Assembly: GCA_020851035.1 (NCBI GenBank)
Contig: JADZDM010000012.1
Location: forward strand, 124,001-188,000
Reading direction: 5' to 3'
Length of the DNA stretch: 64,000 nt
DNA from: Gemmatimonadaceae bacterium
GTDB lineage: Bacteria; Gemmatimonadota; Gemmatimonadetes; Gemmatimonadales; Gemmatimonadaceae
Each line of letters begins with the position of its first letter. The first letter of the stretch is position 1. Made by a program: the position numbers and the translations under genes. The notes beneath the pieces are model-generated. The model worked only from the letters and a program-made list of their open reading frames with translations. It was not told where the DNA came from and made no database searches. This document shows, piece by piece, positions 17,363 to 60,020 of this stretch.

Positions 17363-18066
17363 CGCGCGGGCAGCCGGCGCTGCTCCTGGCGCTCGACGTG
17401 CCGTCGTCCGCGGAGGCGCTGTCGCTGGTGGACCGGTTCGAGGGCCGGGCGGGGTTCGTGAAGGTGGGGCTCGAGCTCTTCACCGCCGCCGGTCCGTCGC
17501 TGGTGACCACGCTGCGTGCGCGTGGCATCGAGGTGTTCCTCGACCTCAAGCTGCACGACATCCCGAACACCGTCCGGCAGGCGGCGCGGCGGGCGGCGGC
17601 CCTGGACGTGCGGCTGCTGACCGTGCACGCGTCGGGGGGCGCGGCGATGGTGGCGGCGGCGGTGGACGGGGCGGGGGACTCGACGGGTATCCTCGGCGTG
17701 ACCGTGCTGACGAGCCTGTCGCCGTCCGAGGTGGCCGAGGCGTGGGGGCGCGGGCCCTGGCTGGACGTGGGGGACGAGGTGCTGCGGCTGGCGGGGCTCA
17801 CGGAGCGGGCCGGAGCGCACGGCGTCGTGTGCAGCGGGGCGGAGCTCGGCGCGGTGATGGAGCGCCACGGTGGTCGGCTGGCCGCGCTGGTGCCCGGCGT
17901 GCGGCCGGCTGGGGCCGCGGCGAACGATCAGGTGCGGGTCGTGACCCCTGAGGCGGCGGCGGCGCTCGGGGCGCGGTACCTGATCCTGGGCCGGGCGGTG
18001 ACGGCGGCACCCGATCCGGCGGCCGCCTGGGACGCGATCCAGGCGGCGGTGCGGGGGGTGGGCTGA
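17359..18066 (+). CDS. pyrF: Orotidine 5'-phosphate decarboxylase
   Basis: A 235-residue enzyme for the last step of UMP synthesis, decarboxylating OMP. The catalytic network D-x-K-x-x-D is present as LDLKLHDIPNTV (Asp62, Lys64, Asp67). LVPGVRPAG and YLILGRAVT supply phosphate and uracil contacts. The start GTG overlaps the pyrD stop (GTGA), so pyrD and pyrF are translationally coupled. Length and motifs match group I bacterial enzymes. It is followed by a promoter region for the ribosomal operon. Confidence 0.95.
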   Translation: MTRGQPALLLALDVPSSAEALSLVDRFEGRAGFVKVGLELFTAAGPSLVTTLRARGIEVFLDLKLHDIPNTVRQAARRAAALDVRLLTVHASGGAAMVAAAVDGAGDSTGILGVTVLTSLSPSEVAEAWGRGPWLDVGDEVLRLAGLTERAGAHGVVCSGAELGAVMERHGGRLAALVPGVRPAGAAANDQVRVVTPEAAAALGARYLILGRAVTAAPDPAAAWDAIQAAVRGVG

Positions 18067-18154
18067 GGGGGACGGGGTGGTTGGCGCGGCGAATCGTACA
18101 CGTCAGTCATTTTCCGGTGTCAAGAGGTTCCTGGAAGAAAGTCGGTTCCGGGCC

Positions 18155-18183
18155 TTGTATGCCGTCACCGGCCCGGCTAGCTT
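18155..18183 (+). promoter_or_regulatory. Candidate promoter of the rpmJ-rpmB operon
   Basis: TTGTAT (18155-18160), a 17-base spacer, then TAGCTT (18178-18183), 42 bases before the rpmJ start. It is one of the best matches to the TAnnTT pattern in the window. Confidence 0.6.
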
Positions 18184-18225
18184 GGGAGACTTGTCCCGAA
18201 GTCGTGTCCCCGACAGGAGTTTCCT

Positions 18226-18342
18226 GTGAAAGTCCGTTCGAGCGTGAAGCCGATCTGCGAGCACTGCAAGGTGGTCAAGCGTGACGGCGTCCTCCGCATC
18301 ATTTGCGGGCGCAATCCCAAGCACAAGCAGCGGCAGGGTTAA
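18226..18342 (+). CDS. rpmJ: Ribosomal protein bL36
   Basis: A 38-residue protein, [20 protein letters not shown] and onward, with the zinc ligands Cys-x2-Cys-x12-Cys-x4-His intact, so it is the zinc-binding form. The start is GTG at 18226 with AGGAG at 18215-18219, 6 bases upstream. It opens the alpha operon, and rpsM follows after 6 bases. The protein sits in the 50S subunit near the 23S rRNA elbow. It is too short to stand out in automatic calls but is certain by sequence. Confidence 0.97.
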
Positions 18343-34576: not shown

Positions 34577-35341
34577 ATGCCGTCCACCCTGCACCTGCCC
34601 GTCACCGTCGAGCCCGGACCCCTCACTACCGGGAAGGGCCCGGATGCGCTAATACAACTGGAGCGGCTCGCACCCGCCGAACGGCCGCGTGAGCGCCTGC
34701 GGGCCCTCGGGGTGCGGTCGCTCGGCGCGGCGGAGCTGCTGGCCGTGATCCTCGGGAGCGGGTCGCGGGGACGGTCGTCCCTGCGAATCGCGCACGAGAT
34801 CCTGGCCGAGGTGGGTGGGGTGCTTCGGGTGCTTGCCAACCGTCCGGTGGCGGCGATCGGCGGGATTCCCGGGGTCGGACCGGCGCGCGCCATGGCGATC
34901 GTCGCGGCGTTCGAGCTCGGTCGCCGGACGGCGGCCGAGCCGCACGGAGAGCGTGTGGCGGTGCATTCGCCGCAGGACGTGGTGGCGGCCTTCGCGCCTC
35001 ACCTCGAGGCGCTGCCGGTCGAGGAGTTCCACGTCGCGATCCTCGATGCACAGCACCACCTCGAGCGGGACGTGCTGGTCACGCGGGGGATCCTCGATTC
35101 TTCGCTGGTGCACCCAAGGGAGGTGTTCCGGGAGGCGATCGCGGAGCGTGCCGCGTCGATCATCCTGGTGCACAACCATCCGAGCGGGGACCCGACCCCG
35201 TCGGCCGAGGACCGGATCGTGACGTCGCAATTGGTGGCGGCGGGTACACTGCTGGGGATCCCGGTGCGCGATCACGTCGTGATCGGACGGGGACGGTACG
35301 TCAGTTTTGCGGAGGCTGGGTGGCTCTCGACGGTGCGGTGA
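34577..35341 (+). CDS. radC: RadC family JAMM protein
   Basis: A 254-residue RadC (UPF0758). An N-terminal helix-hairpin-helix region (IGGIPGVGPARAMAIVAAFELG) precedes a JAB/JAMM domain with HNHPSGDPTPSAED, ligands His199, His201 and Asp212. The family was named for radiation sensitivity in E. coli, but that phenotype is now doubted and the biochemical role is unclear. Its end overlaps the rel start. An intergenic stretch of 183 bases separates it from the divergent barrel gene; I saw no convincing promoter there. Confidence 0.92.
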   Translation: MPSTLHLPVTVEPGPLTTGKGPDALIQLERLAPAERPRERLRALGVRSLGAAELLAVILGSGSRGRSSLRIAHEILAEVGGVLRVLANRPVAAIGGIPGVGPARAMAIVAAFELGRRTAAEPHGERVAVHSPQDVVAAFAPHLEALPVEEFHVAILDAQHHLERDVLVTRGILDSSLVHPREVFREAIAERAASIILVHNHPSGDPTPSAEDRIVTSQLVAAGTLLGIPVRDHVVIGRGRYVSFAEAGWLSTVR

Positions 35342-37509
35342 AGCAGGCGGAGGAAGTCCTCCCGGGATGGGGGCCAGGCGGTCCGCTGCCGGCGCGGCTC
35401 GATCGCGAGCTGCTCATGCGCGCCTACCGCTACAGCGCGCGTGCGCACACGGGGCAGAAGCGGCGCTCCGGCGAGGACTACGTCGTGCACTGCGTCCAGG
35501 TGGCGCGGATCCTCGCCGACCTCCAGCTCGACTCGGTGACGATCGCCGCGGGGCTGATCCACGACGTGGTCGAGGACACCGCGATCACGGTGCCCGACGT
35601 GGAGCGCGAGTTCGGCCCCGAGATCGCGCAGATCGTCGACGGGCTGACGAAGATCGGCAACCTGCCGTTCACCTCGAAGGAGGAGCGCCAGGCCGAGACG
35701 TACCGCAAGCTGCTGCTGTCGGTGGCGCGCGACGCGCGCGTGATCATCATCAAGCTCGCCGACCGCCTGCACAACATGCGCACGCTGGAGTGGATGCCAG
35801 ACGACAAGAAGCGGCTGATCGCGCAGGAGACGCGCGACATCTACGCGCCGCTGGCCCACCGCTTCGGCATGGCGAAGGTCCGGTGGGAGCTGGAGGACCT
35901 CGCGTTCAAGTACCTCGAGCCGGACGACTACCGCACGCTTGCACGGCAGGTGAGCACGCGCCGCGGTGAGCGCGAGGAGCTGATCGCGCAGATGGCGGTG
36001 CCGCTCAAGGAGCGCTTCGACCTCGCCGGGCTGCATGACGCCGATGTCTCGGGGCGCCCGAAGCACCTGTGGTCGATCTGGAAGAAGATGCAGAAGCGGA
36101 ACAAGCCGTACGAGGAGATCTTCGACCTCCTCGCGATCCGCGTGCTGGTGGACACCATCCCCGACTGCTACCACGCCCTCGGCGTGATCCACGAGAAGTG
36201 GAAGCCGGTGCAGGAGCGCATCAAGGACTACATCGCGCAGCCGAAGTCGAACGGCTACCAGTCGCTGCACACGACGGTGTTCGGCCCGAGCAAGCAGCTC
36301 TTCGAGATCCAGATCCGGACGCGGGAGATGCACCAGACCGCGGACTACGGCATCGCGGCGCACTGGCTGTACAAGGAGGGGGCGAAGGAGCACGGGGACC
36401 TCGACCGCCACCTCGCCTGGTTCCGGCAGGTGCTGGAGTTCCAGCTCGACACGAAGTCGCCGGACGAGTTCCTCGAGTTCCTGAAGCTCGACCTCTACCA
36501 GGACGAGATCTTCGTCTTCACGCCGACCGGTGACGTGGTCCAGCTGCCGAAGGGCGCGACGCCGATCGACTTCGCCTTCGCGGTGCACACCGCGGTCGGC
36601 CTGCGCTGCCAGGGCGCGAAGGTCAACGGCCGGATCACGCCGCTGTCGCGACCGCTGAAGAATTCGGAGACGGTCGAGATCCTCACCTCGCCGTCGGCCA
36701 AGCCGAGCCGCGACTGGCTGGCGCACGTGCGCACCAGCCGCGCCCGCGCCAAGATCCGGCAGCAGCTCCGGCAGGACGAGCAGGTCACGAGCCAGAAGCT
36801 CGGCCGCGAGATCCTGGAGCGCGAGCTGCGCCGGCGCCGGCTTGGCAAGGTGACCGACGAGACGCTGCACGTGGCGGCCAGGGCCCTCAGCCTGACCGAC
36901 GCCGTGCACCTCCTCGCCGCCATCGGCCAGGGTGAGATCCAGACGCTGGCGGTGATCAAGCAGCTCTACCCGAACGCGGATGACTCGCTCGAGCCGGCGA
37001 AGCCGAGCGTCATCGAGCGCCTGGTGGACAAGGTGCGCGGCACCGGCAACGATCGGGGCGTGAAGATCCAGGGCGTGGACGGGGTCATGGTCCGGTACGC
37101 CCAGTGCTGTCAGCCCGTGCCGGGCGACGAGGTGGTGGGGTACGTGACCCGCGGTCGCGGGGTGAGCATCCACCGCGCGGACTGCCCGAACCTCCTGCCG
37201 CTGGCGCACGAACCGGAGCGCCGGCTGGAGATCGACTGGCAGGAGAAGTTCGGCGAGCGGTTCATCGTGCGGCTGGCACTCGAGGGCACCGACCGGCGCG
37301 GGTTGTACGCCGACGTCGCCAGCGCCGTGAGTTCGACCGGCACCGACATCCGGCAGATGGAGCTGAAGGCGGTCGACGGTCGCGCGGTCGGCTCGATCAT
37401 GGTGGAGGTGGAAAACCTCGAGCACCTGCAGCAGATCGTGAAGCAGGTGCGGCGCGTGAAGGGAATCAGCGAGATCGCGCGGCGGGAGCGGATCTCGACC
37501 GAGGACTGA
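35320..37509 (+). CDS. rel: Bifunctional (p)ppGpp synthetase/hydrolase
   Basis: A 729-residue RelA/SpoT homologue that makes and degrades the alarmone (p)ppGpp. The HD hydrolase site is intact (HDVVED). The synthetase domain carries ERIKDYIAQPKSNGYQSLHT, the RxKD charge motif of bifunctional enzymes, and QIRTREMHQTADYGIAAHW. TGS (VFTPTGDVVQLPKGATPIDFA), helical, zinc-finger-like and ACT domains follow. It is the only such enzyme in the window. The start GTG at 35320 overlaps radC by 22 bases; a GTG at 35338 forming GTGA with the radC stop is also plausible. Confidence 0.95.
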   Translation: MALDGAVKQAEEVLPGWGPGGPLPARLDRELLMRAYRYSARAHTGQKRRSGEDYVVHCVQVARILADLQLDSVTIAAGLIHDVVEDTAITVPDVEREFGPEIAQIVDGLTKIGNLPFTSKEERQAETYRKLLLSVARDARVIIIKLADRLHNMRTLEWMPDDKKRLIAQETRDIYAPLAHRFGMAKVRWELEDLAFKYLEPDDYRTLARQVSTRRGEREELIAQMAVPLKERFDLAGLHDADVSGRPKHLWSIWKKMQKRNKPYEEIFDLLAIRVLVDTIPDCYHALGVIHEKWKPVQERIKDYIAQPKSNGYQSLHTTVFGPSKQLFEIQIRTREMHQTADYGIAAHWLYKEGAKEHGDLDRHLAWFRQVLEFQLDTKSPDEFLEFLKLDLYQDEIFVFTPTGDVVQLPKGATPIDFAFAVHTAVGLRCQGAKVNGRITPLSRPLKNSETVEILTSPSAKPSRDWLAHVRTSRARAKIRQQLRQDEQVTSQKLGREILERELRRRRLGKVTDETLHVAARALSLTDAVHLLAAIGQGEIQTLAVIKQLYPNADDSLEPAKPSVIERLVDKVRGTGNDRGVKIQGVDGVMVRYAQCCQPVPGDEVVGYVTRGRGVSIHRADCPNLLPLAHEPERRLEIDWQEKFGERFIVRLALEGTDRRGLYADVASAVSSTGTDIRQMELKAVDGRAVGSIMVEVENLEHLQQIVKQVRRVKGISEIARRERISTED

Positions 37510-37534
37510 CGCTGGCTCGTGCGCGGTACGGGTG

Positions 37535-37690
37535 ATCGTCGACAGTGTGCACGCGGTGCTCGCGGACGCACGGAATGTTCTACAGCGGAACGCTGATCGT
37601 TGCGTCGTCGGCATCGTCAACAGTGTTCACGCGGAGCTCGCGAAAGCACGGAGTGTTCTACAGCGGAACGCTGATCGTTGCGTCGTCGGC
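37535..37690 (+). repeat. 78-bp tandem direct repeat, two full copies
   Basis: Two copies of a 78-bp unit (37535-37612 and 37613-37690) differ at about six positions in their first halves. The block 37576-37622 is repeated exactly at 37654-37700, 47 bases without change. A third copy begins at 37691 but turns into the left arm of the large hairpin after about 25 bases. Base composition is less GC-rich than in nearby genes. The frame stays open through the repeats, but I do not regard it as coding. Confidence 0.9.
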
Positions 37691-37907
37691 ATCGTCAACA
37701 AGGCTCACGCGGAAGACGCGGAAAACGCGGAAAAGTTCTGTCGCGTCGCGGCGTTCGGTGCCGCTCGCAACGAGGAAAATGCTGGAGGAACTGCGCTCGC
37801 GGACATGCAGTTCCTACAAGAATCGATGCGGCAGGATCGGCCGACCGCCATTTCCGATTGGACTTTTCCGCGTTTTCCGCGTTTTCCGCGTGAACCTTGT
37901 TGACGAT
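37691..37907. repeat. 217-bp imperfect palindrome (large hairpin element)
   Basis: The left arm 37691-37735 and right arm 37863-37907 are reverse complements at 43 of 45 positions. Each holds three 9-base CGCGGAAAA-type sub-repeats. An inner hairpin, AGGAACTGC (37786-37794) with GCAGTTCCT (37807-37815), is centred on the same axis near 37800. The intermediate parts pair only loosely. Transcribed, it would form a long hairpin RNA; as DNA, a cruciform. It resembles a palindromic intergenic element or miniature mobile element. Confidence 0.88.
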
Positions 37908-37944
37908 CCGTGCCAGGCACCGACGCTGGCCGTTCGGTACGACG

Positions 37945-37974
37945 TTCCGTGCTTCCGCGCGAACAGTGTTGACG
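37945..37974 (-). repeat. Inverted, degenerate partial copy of the 78-bp unit
   Basis: Read on the minus strand this starts CGTCAACACTGTTCGCGCGG and then GAAGCACGGAA, matching the first half of the 78-bp unit with a 7-base deletion and few substitutions. Similarity continues weakly toward 37908. It mirrors the direct copies left of the palindrome. Confidence 0.7.
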
Positions 37975-38014
37975 GGGGAGCCTGCCTCAGAAGTGTGGAG
38001 CAATCGCCGAAATA

Positions 38015-38092: not shown

Positions 38093-40234
38093 ATGAGCCA
38101 GTCGCTGTTCGACCTCCAGGCGCCGTACATGCCCGCCGGCGACCAGCCGCGCGCGATCGCCGAGCTGACCGCCGGCCTCGCCCGGGGTGACCGGTACCAG
38201 ACGCTCCTCGGCGTCACCGGCTCCGGGAAGACGATGACCATCGCCAGCGTCATCGCCGACCTCGGCAAGCCCACCCTCGTCCTCTCGCACAACAAGACGC
38301 TGGCCGCGCAACTCTACGGGGAGCTGAAGGGATTCTTCCCGAAGAACGCGGTCGAGTACTTCATCTCGTACTACGACTACTACCAGCCGGAGGCGTACGT
38401 CCCCTCGAGTGACACCTACATCGAGAAGGACGCCTCGATCAACGAGGACATCGATCGCCTCCGCCTGCGCGCCACCTCGAGCCTCATGGAGCGCGAGGAT
38501 GTCGTCATCGTCTCCACCGTCTCGGCGATCTACGGCCTCGGTGACCCGGTGTCGTACCGCGAGCGGATGATCAGCGTGGATCAGGGGCAGCAGATCGCGC
38601 GCGACGACCTCCTGCGGCTGCTGGTCGGGATCCAGTACCAGCGCAATGACGTCGCCTTCGACCGCGGCACCTTCCGCGTGCGGGGCGACACGGTCGAGAT
38701 CTTCCCGGCCTACGAGGAACAGGCCGTGCGCGTCGAGTTCTGGGGCGACGAGGTGGAGCGCATCACCAAGATCGACCCGATCACCGGTGACCTGATCGCG
38801 ACGCTGTCACGCGCGGCGGTGTACCCGGCCAAGCACTTCATCACCAGCCGGCCGAGCCTCGAGAAGGCGGCGAAGGCGATCCGCGAGGAGCTCGCCGACC
38901 GCCTGCAGATGCTGCGCAACGATGGCAAGCTGCTGGAGGCGCAGCGCCTCGAGGGGCGCACGAACTTCGACCTCGAGATGATGGCGGAAATCGGCACCTG
39001 CGCCGGCATCGAGAACTACTCGCGTCACCTCTCCGGCCGCGAGACGGGCGACCGCCCGGCCTGCCTCTTCGACTACTTCCCCGACGACTTCATGGTCGTG
39101 GTGGACGAGTCGCACGTGACGCTGCCGCAGATCCGCGGCATGTACAACGGCGACCGCGCCCGGAAGCTCACGCTGGTGGACTACGGCTTTCGCCTGCCCA
39201 GTGCGCTCGACAACCGCCCGCTGGTGTTCGACGAGTTCCTCGCGCTCACGCCACGCCTGATCAACGTGTCGGCGACGCCCGGCTCGATCGAGCTCGAGCT
39301 GAGCGAAGGCGTGGTGGTGGAGCAGGTGATCCGGCCCACGGGACTGGTCGACCCCGTGATCGAGATTCGCCCCGTCAAGGGCCAGGTGGACGACCTGCTC
39401 CACGAGATCCGCATCCGCGAGCGCAAGGACGAGCGCGTGCTGGTGACGGTGCTCACGAAGCGCATGGCCGAGGACCTCACCGACTACTTGCAGCAGGTGG
39501 GAGTGCGCGTGCGCTACATGCACGCCGACATCGACGCGATCGAGCGGATGGAGATCGTGCGTGGCCTCCGGCTGGGGGAGTTCGACGTGCTGATCGGGAT
39601 CAACCTCCTGCGTGAGGGGCTGGACATGCCCGAGGTGTCCCTGGTGGCGATCCTCGATGCCGACACCGAGGGGTTCCTGCGCAGTGATCGCTCGCTGATC
39701 CAGACCGTTGGTCGCGCCGCGCGCCATCTCGAGGGGCGGGCGATCCTCTACGCCGACCGGATCACCGACTCGATGCGGCGCTGCATCGACGAGACCGACC
39801 GCCGACGGTCGATCCAGGTGGCCCACAACGAGGCGAACGGCATCACGCCGAAGGGCGTCCGCAAGAGCATCGAGCAGGTGCGCTTCAGCACCCGCGTGGC
39901 CGACGCGCGGCTCGAGGAGGCGGAGGAGACCGACGGGGCCCCGCTCTCGGCGTACGGCGCGCGCAAGGTGGCCGAGCCGGCCGGCGGGTACGCCGCTGCC
40001 GACCTGCCGACGCTGATCGCCGGGCTGGAGAAGGAGATGCAGGAGGCGGCCAAGGCACTCGACTTCGAGGCGGCGGCGCGCCTGCGCGACCAGCTGTTCG
40101 AGCTTCGCGTGCGCAGCGGGGACACGGCGGGGGCGCGCACGGGCGTGACCTCGCTGGCCGCCGATCCGGGGGGCAAGGCCGGGCGCGGAGGACGCGGGGG
40201 CCGCGGTGGTGCGCGGAAGTCGCGTGGACGCTGA
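38093..40234 (+). CDS. uvrB: Excinuclease ABC subunit B
   Basis: A 713-residue helicase-like subunit of nucleotide excision repair that verifies lesions brought by UvrA and recruits UvrC. The Walker A motif is [10 protein letters not shown]. The beta-hairpin region [20 protein letters not shown] and helicase motifs ([29 protein letters not shown]) are complete. The C-terminal UVR motif ([19 protein letters not shown]) is present. A Gly/Arg-rich tail extends the protein. The palindromic site upstream may place it under damage control. tsaE overlaps its end. Confidence 0.97.
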
Positions 40235-58181: not shown

Positions 58182-60020
58182 TCAGGTGCTCTGGCGGCGG
58201 GCGGCGGCGTTCAGCTTCTTGCGGCTGTCGACGATCGAGGCACCCTTGCGCAGCCCCTCGAGGTAGTCGCGCACCATCTGCTCGCGCATGCCGCGCAGGA
58301 CCTGCGAGCGCTGCTGCTCCTTCTGCTTCACGAACTCGGCGCTGTCGGCGGCCACGCGGCGGTCGGTGCGGAGCACGAACACGCCGTCGGTGGTGCGGAT
58401 CGGCTGGCTGACCGCGCCGATCGGCAGCGCGAACGCGGCGCCGATCGCCTCGTTGAAGCCGCCCAGGCCCTCGGTCTGCATCGTGCGGGCGAAGGGCGCC
58501 GACTTCGAGAGCGCCAGCGCACGGCGCTGGACGGCGCCCTCGAAGCCGATGGAGGCAGCGGACTCGGTGATGGCGCGGCCGAGCGTCATGAACTCGTCCA
58601 TGACCTTCTCGCGCGCGAGGCGCTCCTTGATCTCGTCCTTCACTTCGTCGAAGCTCGCGACTCCCTCGGCGTGCACCGTGTCGAGGCGCGCGACGTAGTA
58701 ACCCGACGCATCGTCCCACATGTCGCTGCTCTCACCCGCCCGCGCGCCACTGAACGCCCATGCGCTGACGTTCGGCACGTAGCGACCGCCGATGGTGAGG
58801 GGCTCGCCCTCGACCGCGGTGGCCCGCATCACGGGCAGGCCGAGGGCCTTTGCGGCCGCGTCGAACTTCGCCGGCGACTCGGCGTTGCCGGCCAGGTTCG
58901 ACAGCGAGTCGGCGCGCTTGGAGACCCGCGCCGAGGCCGCGTCGTTGATCGTCACGCTGAGGAGGATGTGCCGCAGGTTGAGCGAGTCCCCCGTCTTCGC
59001 ATCGAGCCGGATGAGGTGCCAGCCGAAGTCGGTCTTCACCGGCTGCGAGACCTCGCCGACCGCGAGGGCGCGGGCCGCGGCGGTGAAGGGCAGCACGTAC
59101 TGCTCGGCGGTGCTCCGGCCCAGGTCACCGCCACGGACGGCCGACGTGGTGTCGTTCGAGACCCGCGTGGCGAGGTCGGCGAAGGTGGCCTTCGGGTCGG
59201 CGGCCGCCATGATCTGCGCCCGCAGCTTGACGATCGAGTCGCGGGTGGCGGCGCTGTCGGAGGCCGAGACGACGAGGGGCAGCGCCAGCACCGAGACGGC
59301 CGCGCGCGCCGGCCGCTTGAAGTCGGCGGTGTGCGCCTCGTACCAGGTGCGCGCCTGCGCATCCGTGATCTCACCGGCGTTCACGGCGTTCGGCTTCATC
59401 GCGATGTAGGACACCTGCGCCGTGTCGTGCGAGTCGCGGAAGATCTGCCAGAGGCGGGCATCGCTGACGAAGGCGCCGGCCGCCACCTGCTCGAACAGCT
59501 TCTGCTTCGGGATGGTGCTGCGGTAGTAGCCCTCGAGCTGGGCGAGGAGGCCCTGCTGGCGGGCCTGCGGGCTGCGGAGGAAGCGCTGGTACTTCTCGAA
59601 GTCGAACTGGCCGTTCGTCTGCAGTTCCGGGAGCTGCGCGTACTGTGGCGGCGGGGAGAACTTCGCGTACTCGACGATCTCCTCGGCGGTGACGGAGATG
59701 CCGCGCTTCTCGTACTCGTGCTCGAGCAGGATCTCGGTGACGATCTCGTCGTAGGTCTTCTTCTCGACCTCCGCCCGCTCGTCGAGGGTGAGGGAGCGGC
59801 CGCGCTGCTGCTCCTCCGCCTGGACGGCGGCATCGAGGGCGCGCTGGTAGGAACCGTACGGCACATCCTGCCCGTCGACCTTCACGACGGTGGTGCCAAG
59901 GGTCGGCCCCGAGTCGCGGCCGAAGAGGCCGGAGGACTCGTAGAAGACGAAGCCGCCGATGAACGTGAAGGCGAGGCCCCAGAAGATGTACTTGCCGTAC
60001 GAGCGGAACGTCTGCAGCAC
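58182..60020 (-). CDS. ppiD: PpiD/SurA-type periplasmic peptidyl-prolyl isomerase
   Basis: A 612-residue membrane-anchored foldase on the minus strand. GTG (complement of 60018-60020) is preceded by GAGGAG, better than upstream in-frame ATGs. A single N-terminal helix (YIFWGLAFTFIGGFVFYE) anchors it. A SurA_N-like domain follows (about 30-210), with two rotamase-like regions (GEVSQPVKTDFGWHLIRLDA and GAVSQPIRTTDGVFVLRTDR). This matches PpiD, which helps secreted proteins leave the Sec channel. Its promoter faces that of the TPR gene. Confidence 0.88.
   Translation of the reverse strand: MLQTFRSYGKYIFWGLAFTFIGGFVFYESSGLFGRDSGPTLGTTVVKVDGQDVPYGSYQRALDAAVQAEEQQRGRSLTLDERAEVEKKTYDEIVTEILLEHEYEKRGISVTAEEIVEYAKFSPPPQYAQLPELQTNGQFDFEKYQRFLRSPQARQQGLLAQLEGYYRSTIPKQKLFEQVAAGAFVSDARLWQIFRDSHDTAQVSYIAMKPNAVNAGEITDAQARTWYEAHTADFKRPARAAVSVLALPLVVSASDSAATRDSIVKLRAQIMAAADPKATFADLATRVSNDTTSAVRGGDLGRSTAEQYVLPFTAAARALAVGEVSQPVKTDFGWHLIRLDAKTGDSLNLRHILLSVTINDAASARVSKRADSLSNLAGNAESPAKFDAAAKALGLPVMRATAVEGEPLTIGGRYVPNVSAWAFSGARAGESSDMWDDASGYYVARLDTVHAEGVASFDEVKDEIKERLAREKVMDEFMTLGRAITESAASIGFEGAVQRRALALSKSAPFARTMQTEGLGGFNEAIGAAFALPIGAVSQPIRTTDGVFVLRTDRRVAADSAEFVKQKEQQRSQVLRGMREQMVRDYLEGLRKGASIVDSRKKLNAAARRQST

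Follow-up and report, generated by a model that had tools for sequence, protein, structure and literature searches.

A nested palindrome between rel and uvrB of a Gemmatimonadaceae bacterium: a probable small mobile element linked to GxxExxY nuclease genes

The 440-bp palindromic element between rel and uvrB in the window (the whole stretch of 64,000 nucleotides analysed here) is probably a non-autonomous, MITE-like insertion, one of a family in which gene-bearing members contain a GxxExxY (TIGR04256/PF13366) nuclease gene. Members of the family are dispersed through the genome, include a recent duplication and are polymorphic for insertion or deletion among congeners; they share arms with a nuclease-bearing copy, lie layered within one another and are biased towards the 3' ends of genes. 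The family is apparently a widespread kind of small mobile element that has gone undescribed. The literature searched, which covered few subscription papers, held nothing on a link between such palindromes and GxxExxY, and novelty is to that extent provisional; GxxExxY is mentioned there, never together with such elements, and the literature searched contained no mention of PDDEXK_3 and no relevant paper for the arm sequences. The link to the nuclease was absent from the earlier note on this DNA and was found in the present analysis.

The element is flanked on the plus strand by rel (35320..37509), a 729-aa ORF for a RelA/SpoT-type (p)ppGpp synthetase/hydrolase whose C-terminal part has matches in 21 of 24 relatives, and by the uvrB ORF (38093..40234). 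Downstream of rel come two direct 78-bp repeats, as had been noted before: B unit 1 (37535..37612, plus strand, direct repeat D1), which is the outer arm of subfamily B (ATCGTCGACAGTGTGCACGCGG...GCACGGAA), and its tandem duplicate B unit 2 (37613..37690, plus strand), 92% alike. The A left arm follows (37691..37736, plus strand), detected in the inverted-repeat scan and consisting of the terminus ATCGTCAACA and three 9-bp tandem units ACGCGGAAA; the A right arm (37862..37907, minus strand) is its inverted copy. The 217-bp palindrome formed by these arms is real, with 44 of 46 positions paired in the scan, or 43 of 45 when the arms are taken as 37691-37735 and 37863-37907, as in the earlier note. 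An inner hairpin had been placed at 37786-37815 with 9-nt arms; it is present, but its arms measure 12 nt (37783-37794 and 37807-37818), and it (37783..37818, plus strand, inverted repeat I7) contains the conserved core GGAACTGC...GCAGTTCC. On the right, the degenerate inverted B arm that had been described was recovered with gaps at about 37918..37975 (B', minus strand) by alignment and by the repeat pairs I5 and D2, and it closes the outer palindrome. The B palindrome encloses the A palindrome, which encloses the core hairpin. A 123-aa ORF with a GTG start at 37532-37903 was not taken as a gene, its reading frame running through the repeat units.

A mechanical scan of the 64 kb returned a single long inverted repeat, the A palindrome, with 46-bp arms at 96% identity; the only other match, 22 bp at 58458, is by its look probably due to chance. 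At 60%, the GC content of the element is below the 70% that the window averages and among the lowest 0.25% of 440-bp windows. The claim that this is the only low-GC, repeat-rich region therefore holds for the long inverted repeat but not for composition, as a second stretch near 18.1 kb (18021-18240) has an equally low GC content of about 60%. Folded as RNA, the 230 nt at 37685-37914 reach -139.4 kcal/mol (z -11.4), a stability equalled by none of 200 shuffles, and the full 440 nt give a z of -11.2.

Related copies were counted by sequence searches in the rest of this genome (G000), a 4.97-Mb draft in 34 contigs. Paired arms occur at about 15 places (at least 15), in addition to dozens of partial matches, and a 29-bp A arm has 20 matches genome-wide at no more than 3 mismatches, against none for the reversed control pattern. 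The possibility raised earlier of a single copy genome-wide is ruled out by these dispersed copies; in the plasmid records searched the palindrome is absent. The common layout is ATCGTCAACA-GGGTTC-(ACGCGGAAA)3, a variable stretch, TGTAGGAACTGCG..CGCAGTTCCTACA, another variable stretch and the inverted arm. Subfamily B (CGCGGAGGGCGCGGAAGCACGGAA) also forms palindromes of its own, and the arm type of B unit 1 recurs in two of them, at C20:52.1k (L025) and C20:50.7k (L281). A lies nested within B in the window and at L002 and L009, and nested copies are also common in the congener G002; L002 (C14:29.4k) repeats the window order B B A A' B' and is 74% identical to it over 388 bp. Further subfamilies have very different arms (GACGCAAAGGCGCAAAGG; CCCACGGAGCCACGGAG; CACGCGGAGTCGCGGAG) around an inner hairpin identical in kind to that of A. 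The most recent duplication found is the pair L272 (C24:88030-88330) and L273 (C1:77060-77350), with GACGCAAAG arms: the two are 92% identical over 232 bp and lie in opposite orientation between unrelated flanks, and the high identity at unrelated loci points to a recent event. A different inverted-repeat element of 166 bp, with ends CTAGTGGCGTGTAATCGAAGTTC, occurs three times in 400 kb of the same genome (L374:4067, L378:15391, L380:18624) and looks like another MITE family.

Orthologous sites in two congeners differ in whether they contain a copy. In G001 the gap between rel and uvrB is 132 bp, compared with 583 bp here, and is an empty site; seven further sites are also empty there (L005, L009, L011, L013, L016, L017 and L030). 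Two sites, L009 and L013, are empty in G002, and others are occupied. Beyond the rel-uvrB site, these calls rest on the spacing of matches to the joined flanks of 15 copies, with some sites also aligned. G002 has more than 40 copies of its own version, with CACGCGGGGCTCGCGGGGAACGCGGGGAA arms, many of them enclosed in CACAGAGCCACAGAG arms, and with the inner hairpin GTTGGAAC..GTTCCAAC. An assembly artefact might be suspected in a draft of 34 contigs, and the earlier note had allowed for one; however, the copies are embedded in long contigs and have unique sequence on either side, and orthologous sites are occupied in the independent assembly of G002, so that this explanation, to which we give a negligible probability, is in practice already refuted. 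Dispersed copies and empty orthologous sites support the option of a miniature mobile element put forward earlier. Only part of the pattern then expected of mobility was recovered: the dispersed copies are there, but target duplications next to the termini were not found, the boundaries being blurred by intergenic flanks that are too divergent between species. For L007, we considered and dropped the idea that it sits in a terminator loop, as a 16-bp extension resembles the outer motif of other copies. The spot just downstream of rel is a possible hot spot: in other genera, short-period palindromes of unrelated sequence are found there (L109 in G014 and L112 in G013, of the CACAGAG and GATTGAGGAT types).

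The location and stability of the copies could also be read as those of a cellular RNA or DNA structure under selection, such as a bidirectional terminator, a 3'-end mRNA protector or a nucleoid site, dispersed long ago and mobile only incidentally. Protection of mRNA 3' ends is a proposed role of REPs. Among 38 copies, 20 lie between convergent genes, 16 between tandem and 2 between divergent ones, against 8, 32 and 8 of the 48 gene pairs of the window taken as background (convergent 20/38 versus 8/48, Fisher p = 0.0005; genes were called by a simple ORF caller, and a few of the calls are doubtful). This bias would suit such a role, but avoidance of promoters alone would produce it as well. 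The extreme stability of the hairpin is also in favour, as is the pairing kept despite arm differences between species, including a convergent-gene site occupied in both species (L007/L070), where the arms differ and each is still palindromic; DNA palindromes, however, likewise keep their pairing. Within the species, no more than 6 pairs in a consensus fold of 13 copies show changes on both sides, the covariation term has the wrong sign, and in the variable middle pairing within a copy is only modestly better than pairing across copies (p = 0.017). Since within-species covariation is weak, the palindrome by itself is no proof of RNA function. The stem lacks the U-tract that typically follows it in intrinsic terminators, and a scan of the element against Rfam gave nothing over the gathering threshold, only five sub-threshold chance matches. 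The structured RNA suggested earlier has a very stable predicted hairpin in its favour but no Rfam family. Eight sites are empty in a congener, which weakens the case for an RNA or terminator with a purely cellular role, and since species differ in which sites are occupied, the suggested replication or nucleoid site is unlikely. Overall, selection for a cellular structure seems to us an unlikely explanation.

The connection to the nuclease comes from a copy at C21:439.2-439.8k, in which A arms with 9-bp tandem units and the same terminus as in the window enclose an ORF that scores 128.3 bits against TIGR04256 GxxExxY (cut-off 35) and also matches PF13366 PDDEXK_3. The genome has four GxxExxY genes, all at 110-128 bits against a cut-off of 22. 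Three of them lie between inverted short-period arms (of the ACGCGGAAA, CGGAGGGG and GACGCAAGG types), exact A arms being found at only one of the four; the fourth (C34:36.75k) is beside, not inside, a CACGGAG palindrome. A GxxExxY copy in G001 has a terminus similar to that of A, GTCGGCATCGTTAAC..TGTTCACGCGGA. Among relatives, 24 of 38 GxxExxY genes have flanking inverted repeats that exceed the 99th percentile of dinucleotide shuffles; for genomes of Bacteroidota, Armatimonadota, Verrucomicrobiota and methanogens the figure is 16 of 28, and the other 37-43% have no detectable flanking arms. The same test gave 0 of 19 for rel genes and 0-1 per set for shifted positions. (A control of mismatched pairs was inflated by homologous loci and was replaced by the shuffles, shifted positions and rel genes.) The arms differ between loci and match within a locus, mostly with periods of 8-9 bp. 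Random 400-kb samples from three genomes with GxxExxY contained 6, 8 and about 8 inverted-repeat elements, and those from two genomes without it none that was convincing once N runs were discounted, a small sample in which the five genomes come from different families. A scan of genome contigs with a single GxxExxY sequence found only 8 loci. In the 2.0 Mb of Methanocorpusculum G171, the genome of L129, there are 18 GxxExxY matches, some fragmentary, a count suggesting that GxxExxY may be active in archaea.

The GxxExxY protein has the features of a nuclease. D87, E97 and K99, a D..E.K motif, are invariant in 22 of 22 aligned sequences, and the structure model (pLDDT 87.8) has a PD-(D/E)XK fold. 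No homologue of solved structure was found by sequence search. The best solved match of the model is the Cas4-like SSO0001 (4ic1; Foldseek E 3e-4; Z 9.6, rmsd 3.1 over 99 aligned residues, a likeness of fold that does not reveal the substrate), and restriction-endonuclease folds come next.

Movement by a conventional transposase was weighed against this association. A MITE of the usual kind, left by a DDE insertion sequence since lost and with GxxExxY only secondarily associated, would agree in general with how large and how numerous the copies are, with their terminal inverted repeats and with their place between genes. It has no target duplication beside the termini to support it, though, and would leave unexplained arms that are short tandem repeats differing between subfamilies around a common centre, as well as the recurrence of arms around GxxExxY genes in several phyla and in archaea; we consider it improbable. 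Still less credible is a repeat of REP or TIR type that owes its movement to a tyrosine transposase (Y1, RAYT/TIRYT) from the IS200/IS605 family. REPs and TIRtrons are indeed intergenic palindromes tied to RAYTs (PMC3733652), the genome has three Y1_Tnp genes, and GTAG stands within the inner hairpin of many copies. However, the RAYT genes of this genome lack A or B arms and have unrelated repeats at their flanks, and the Y1/RAYT gene at C25:163197-163523 (L238), flanked by GTTCAAGGGGACGGAGATCTTGAAC arrays, belongs to a separate REP-like system. Moreover, Y1_Tnp has no match in G001, G002, G017, G023, G160, G014 or G147, yet G002, whose assembly is 89% complete, has more than 40 copies; the GTAG is base-paired in the stem, and in G002 it and the bases it pairs with have become GTTG/CAAC.

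The favoured explanation is the non-autonomous insertion related to GxxExxY elements. On this account, the 217-bp A hairpin would have been set within an older B hairpin, and the palindrome would be either a descendant or a parasite of GxxExxY elements. The mobile form may be the hairpin itself, as single-stranded DNA or as a transcript; the nuclease may recognise or open hairpin or terminator sites, and repair or copying would then insert the element, often at the centre or tip of an existing palindrome, copies without the gene being moved in trans. Landing in the centre of existing palindromes is our proposal for the nested, layered copies. The hairpin copies are not simple internal deletions, because the conserved core is absent from the gene-bearing copies. 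Against this account, there are only four GxxExxY genes to dozens of palindromes, and the gene itself could be a passenger inserted into palindromes.

The inverted-arm layout extends to a second gene type. Of 30 genes of the TIGR02436 four-helix-bundle family (23S-IVS protein), 21 show it, and the period is mostly 7 bp; the own genome has no such genes, and elsewhere (L139-L168) they number up to about 12 per genome, with arms mostly of 7-bp tandem units. We tentatively raise a general class, which is possible though not the likelier case: small mobile palindromes of bacteria and archaea, with short-period (7-9 bp) inverted arms around a gene (GxxExxY nuclease or 23S-IVS four-helix-bundle protein) or a core hairpin, that would spread into the tips of existing hairpins with no classical transposase. 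Such a class, if true, would bring together rRNA intervening sequences, heptameric inverted repeats and a large number of intergenic palindromes that have had no explanation. GxxExxY and S23 genes recur across many genomes and have no established function in the literature searched; the presence of both in one kind of inverted-arm element makes hairpin-element mobility a testable proposal for their function, which would account for many short-period intergenic palindromes and could account for the entry of intervening sequences into rRNA hairpins. Mobility without a transposase would be of interest to the fields of both mobile DNA and RNA processing.

Several known systems share some features with the element, and none fits in full. 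The intervening sequences (IVSs) of bacterial 23S rRNA, for example in Coxiella, have complementary ends forming a 28-bp stem and an S23/four-helix-bundle ORF, and are located in helix 45 (PMC4990558). Like them, the present family comprises small elements with ends that can pair into a long stem and, in the gene-bearing form, a short central ORF that encodes no known transposase; hairpins are nested here too, and four-helix-bundle genes outside rRNA also lie between short-period inverted arms. The long terminal stem is predicted here by folding, and RNase III cleavage is a feature of the IVSs. Unlike IVSs, which sit in a 23S rRNA helix, the window copy is bordered by the protein genes rel and uvrB, and the other copies are intergenic; the window copy has no S23-family ORF, and the cargo of the family is a PD-(D/E)XK nuclease. 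MITEs, reviewed in 2024 (PMC10969869, where the word "nuclease" does not occur), are similarly short, non-coding, intergenic and multi-copy, with terminal inverted repeats and empty sites in relatives. Arms of 7-9-bp tandem repeats and layered palindromes set the present elements apart from them; no target duplication was seen next to the termini, no parental transposase with the same ends turned up among the Y1 transposases and the arm cargo examined, and the cargo within the same arms is GxxExxY, which is no known transposase. The REP, REPIN and TIRtron elements associated with RAYTs (PMC3733652, PMC3116915) are also extragenic palindromes, mostly downstream of genes and in combinations. They differ in unit size (20-40 bp, versus 217-440 bp here) and in the REP criterion of an unpaired GTAG or CGTC at one end, the GTAG here being paired and not conserved; no RAYT lies within the arms, and none was found in G002. 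Finally, the GGGAATC heptameric inverted pairs of Xanthomonas (PMC4692102) likewise consist of short-period tandem units, inverted and intergenic, with tens of pairs per genome. They were described without mobile cargo, whereas a layout of about 7 bp surrounds the four-helix-bundle genes in relatives here, and by this analogy a link between the two may be taken as a lead.
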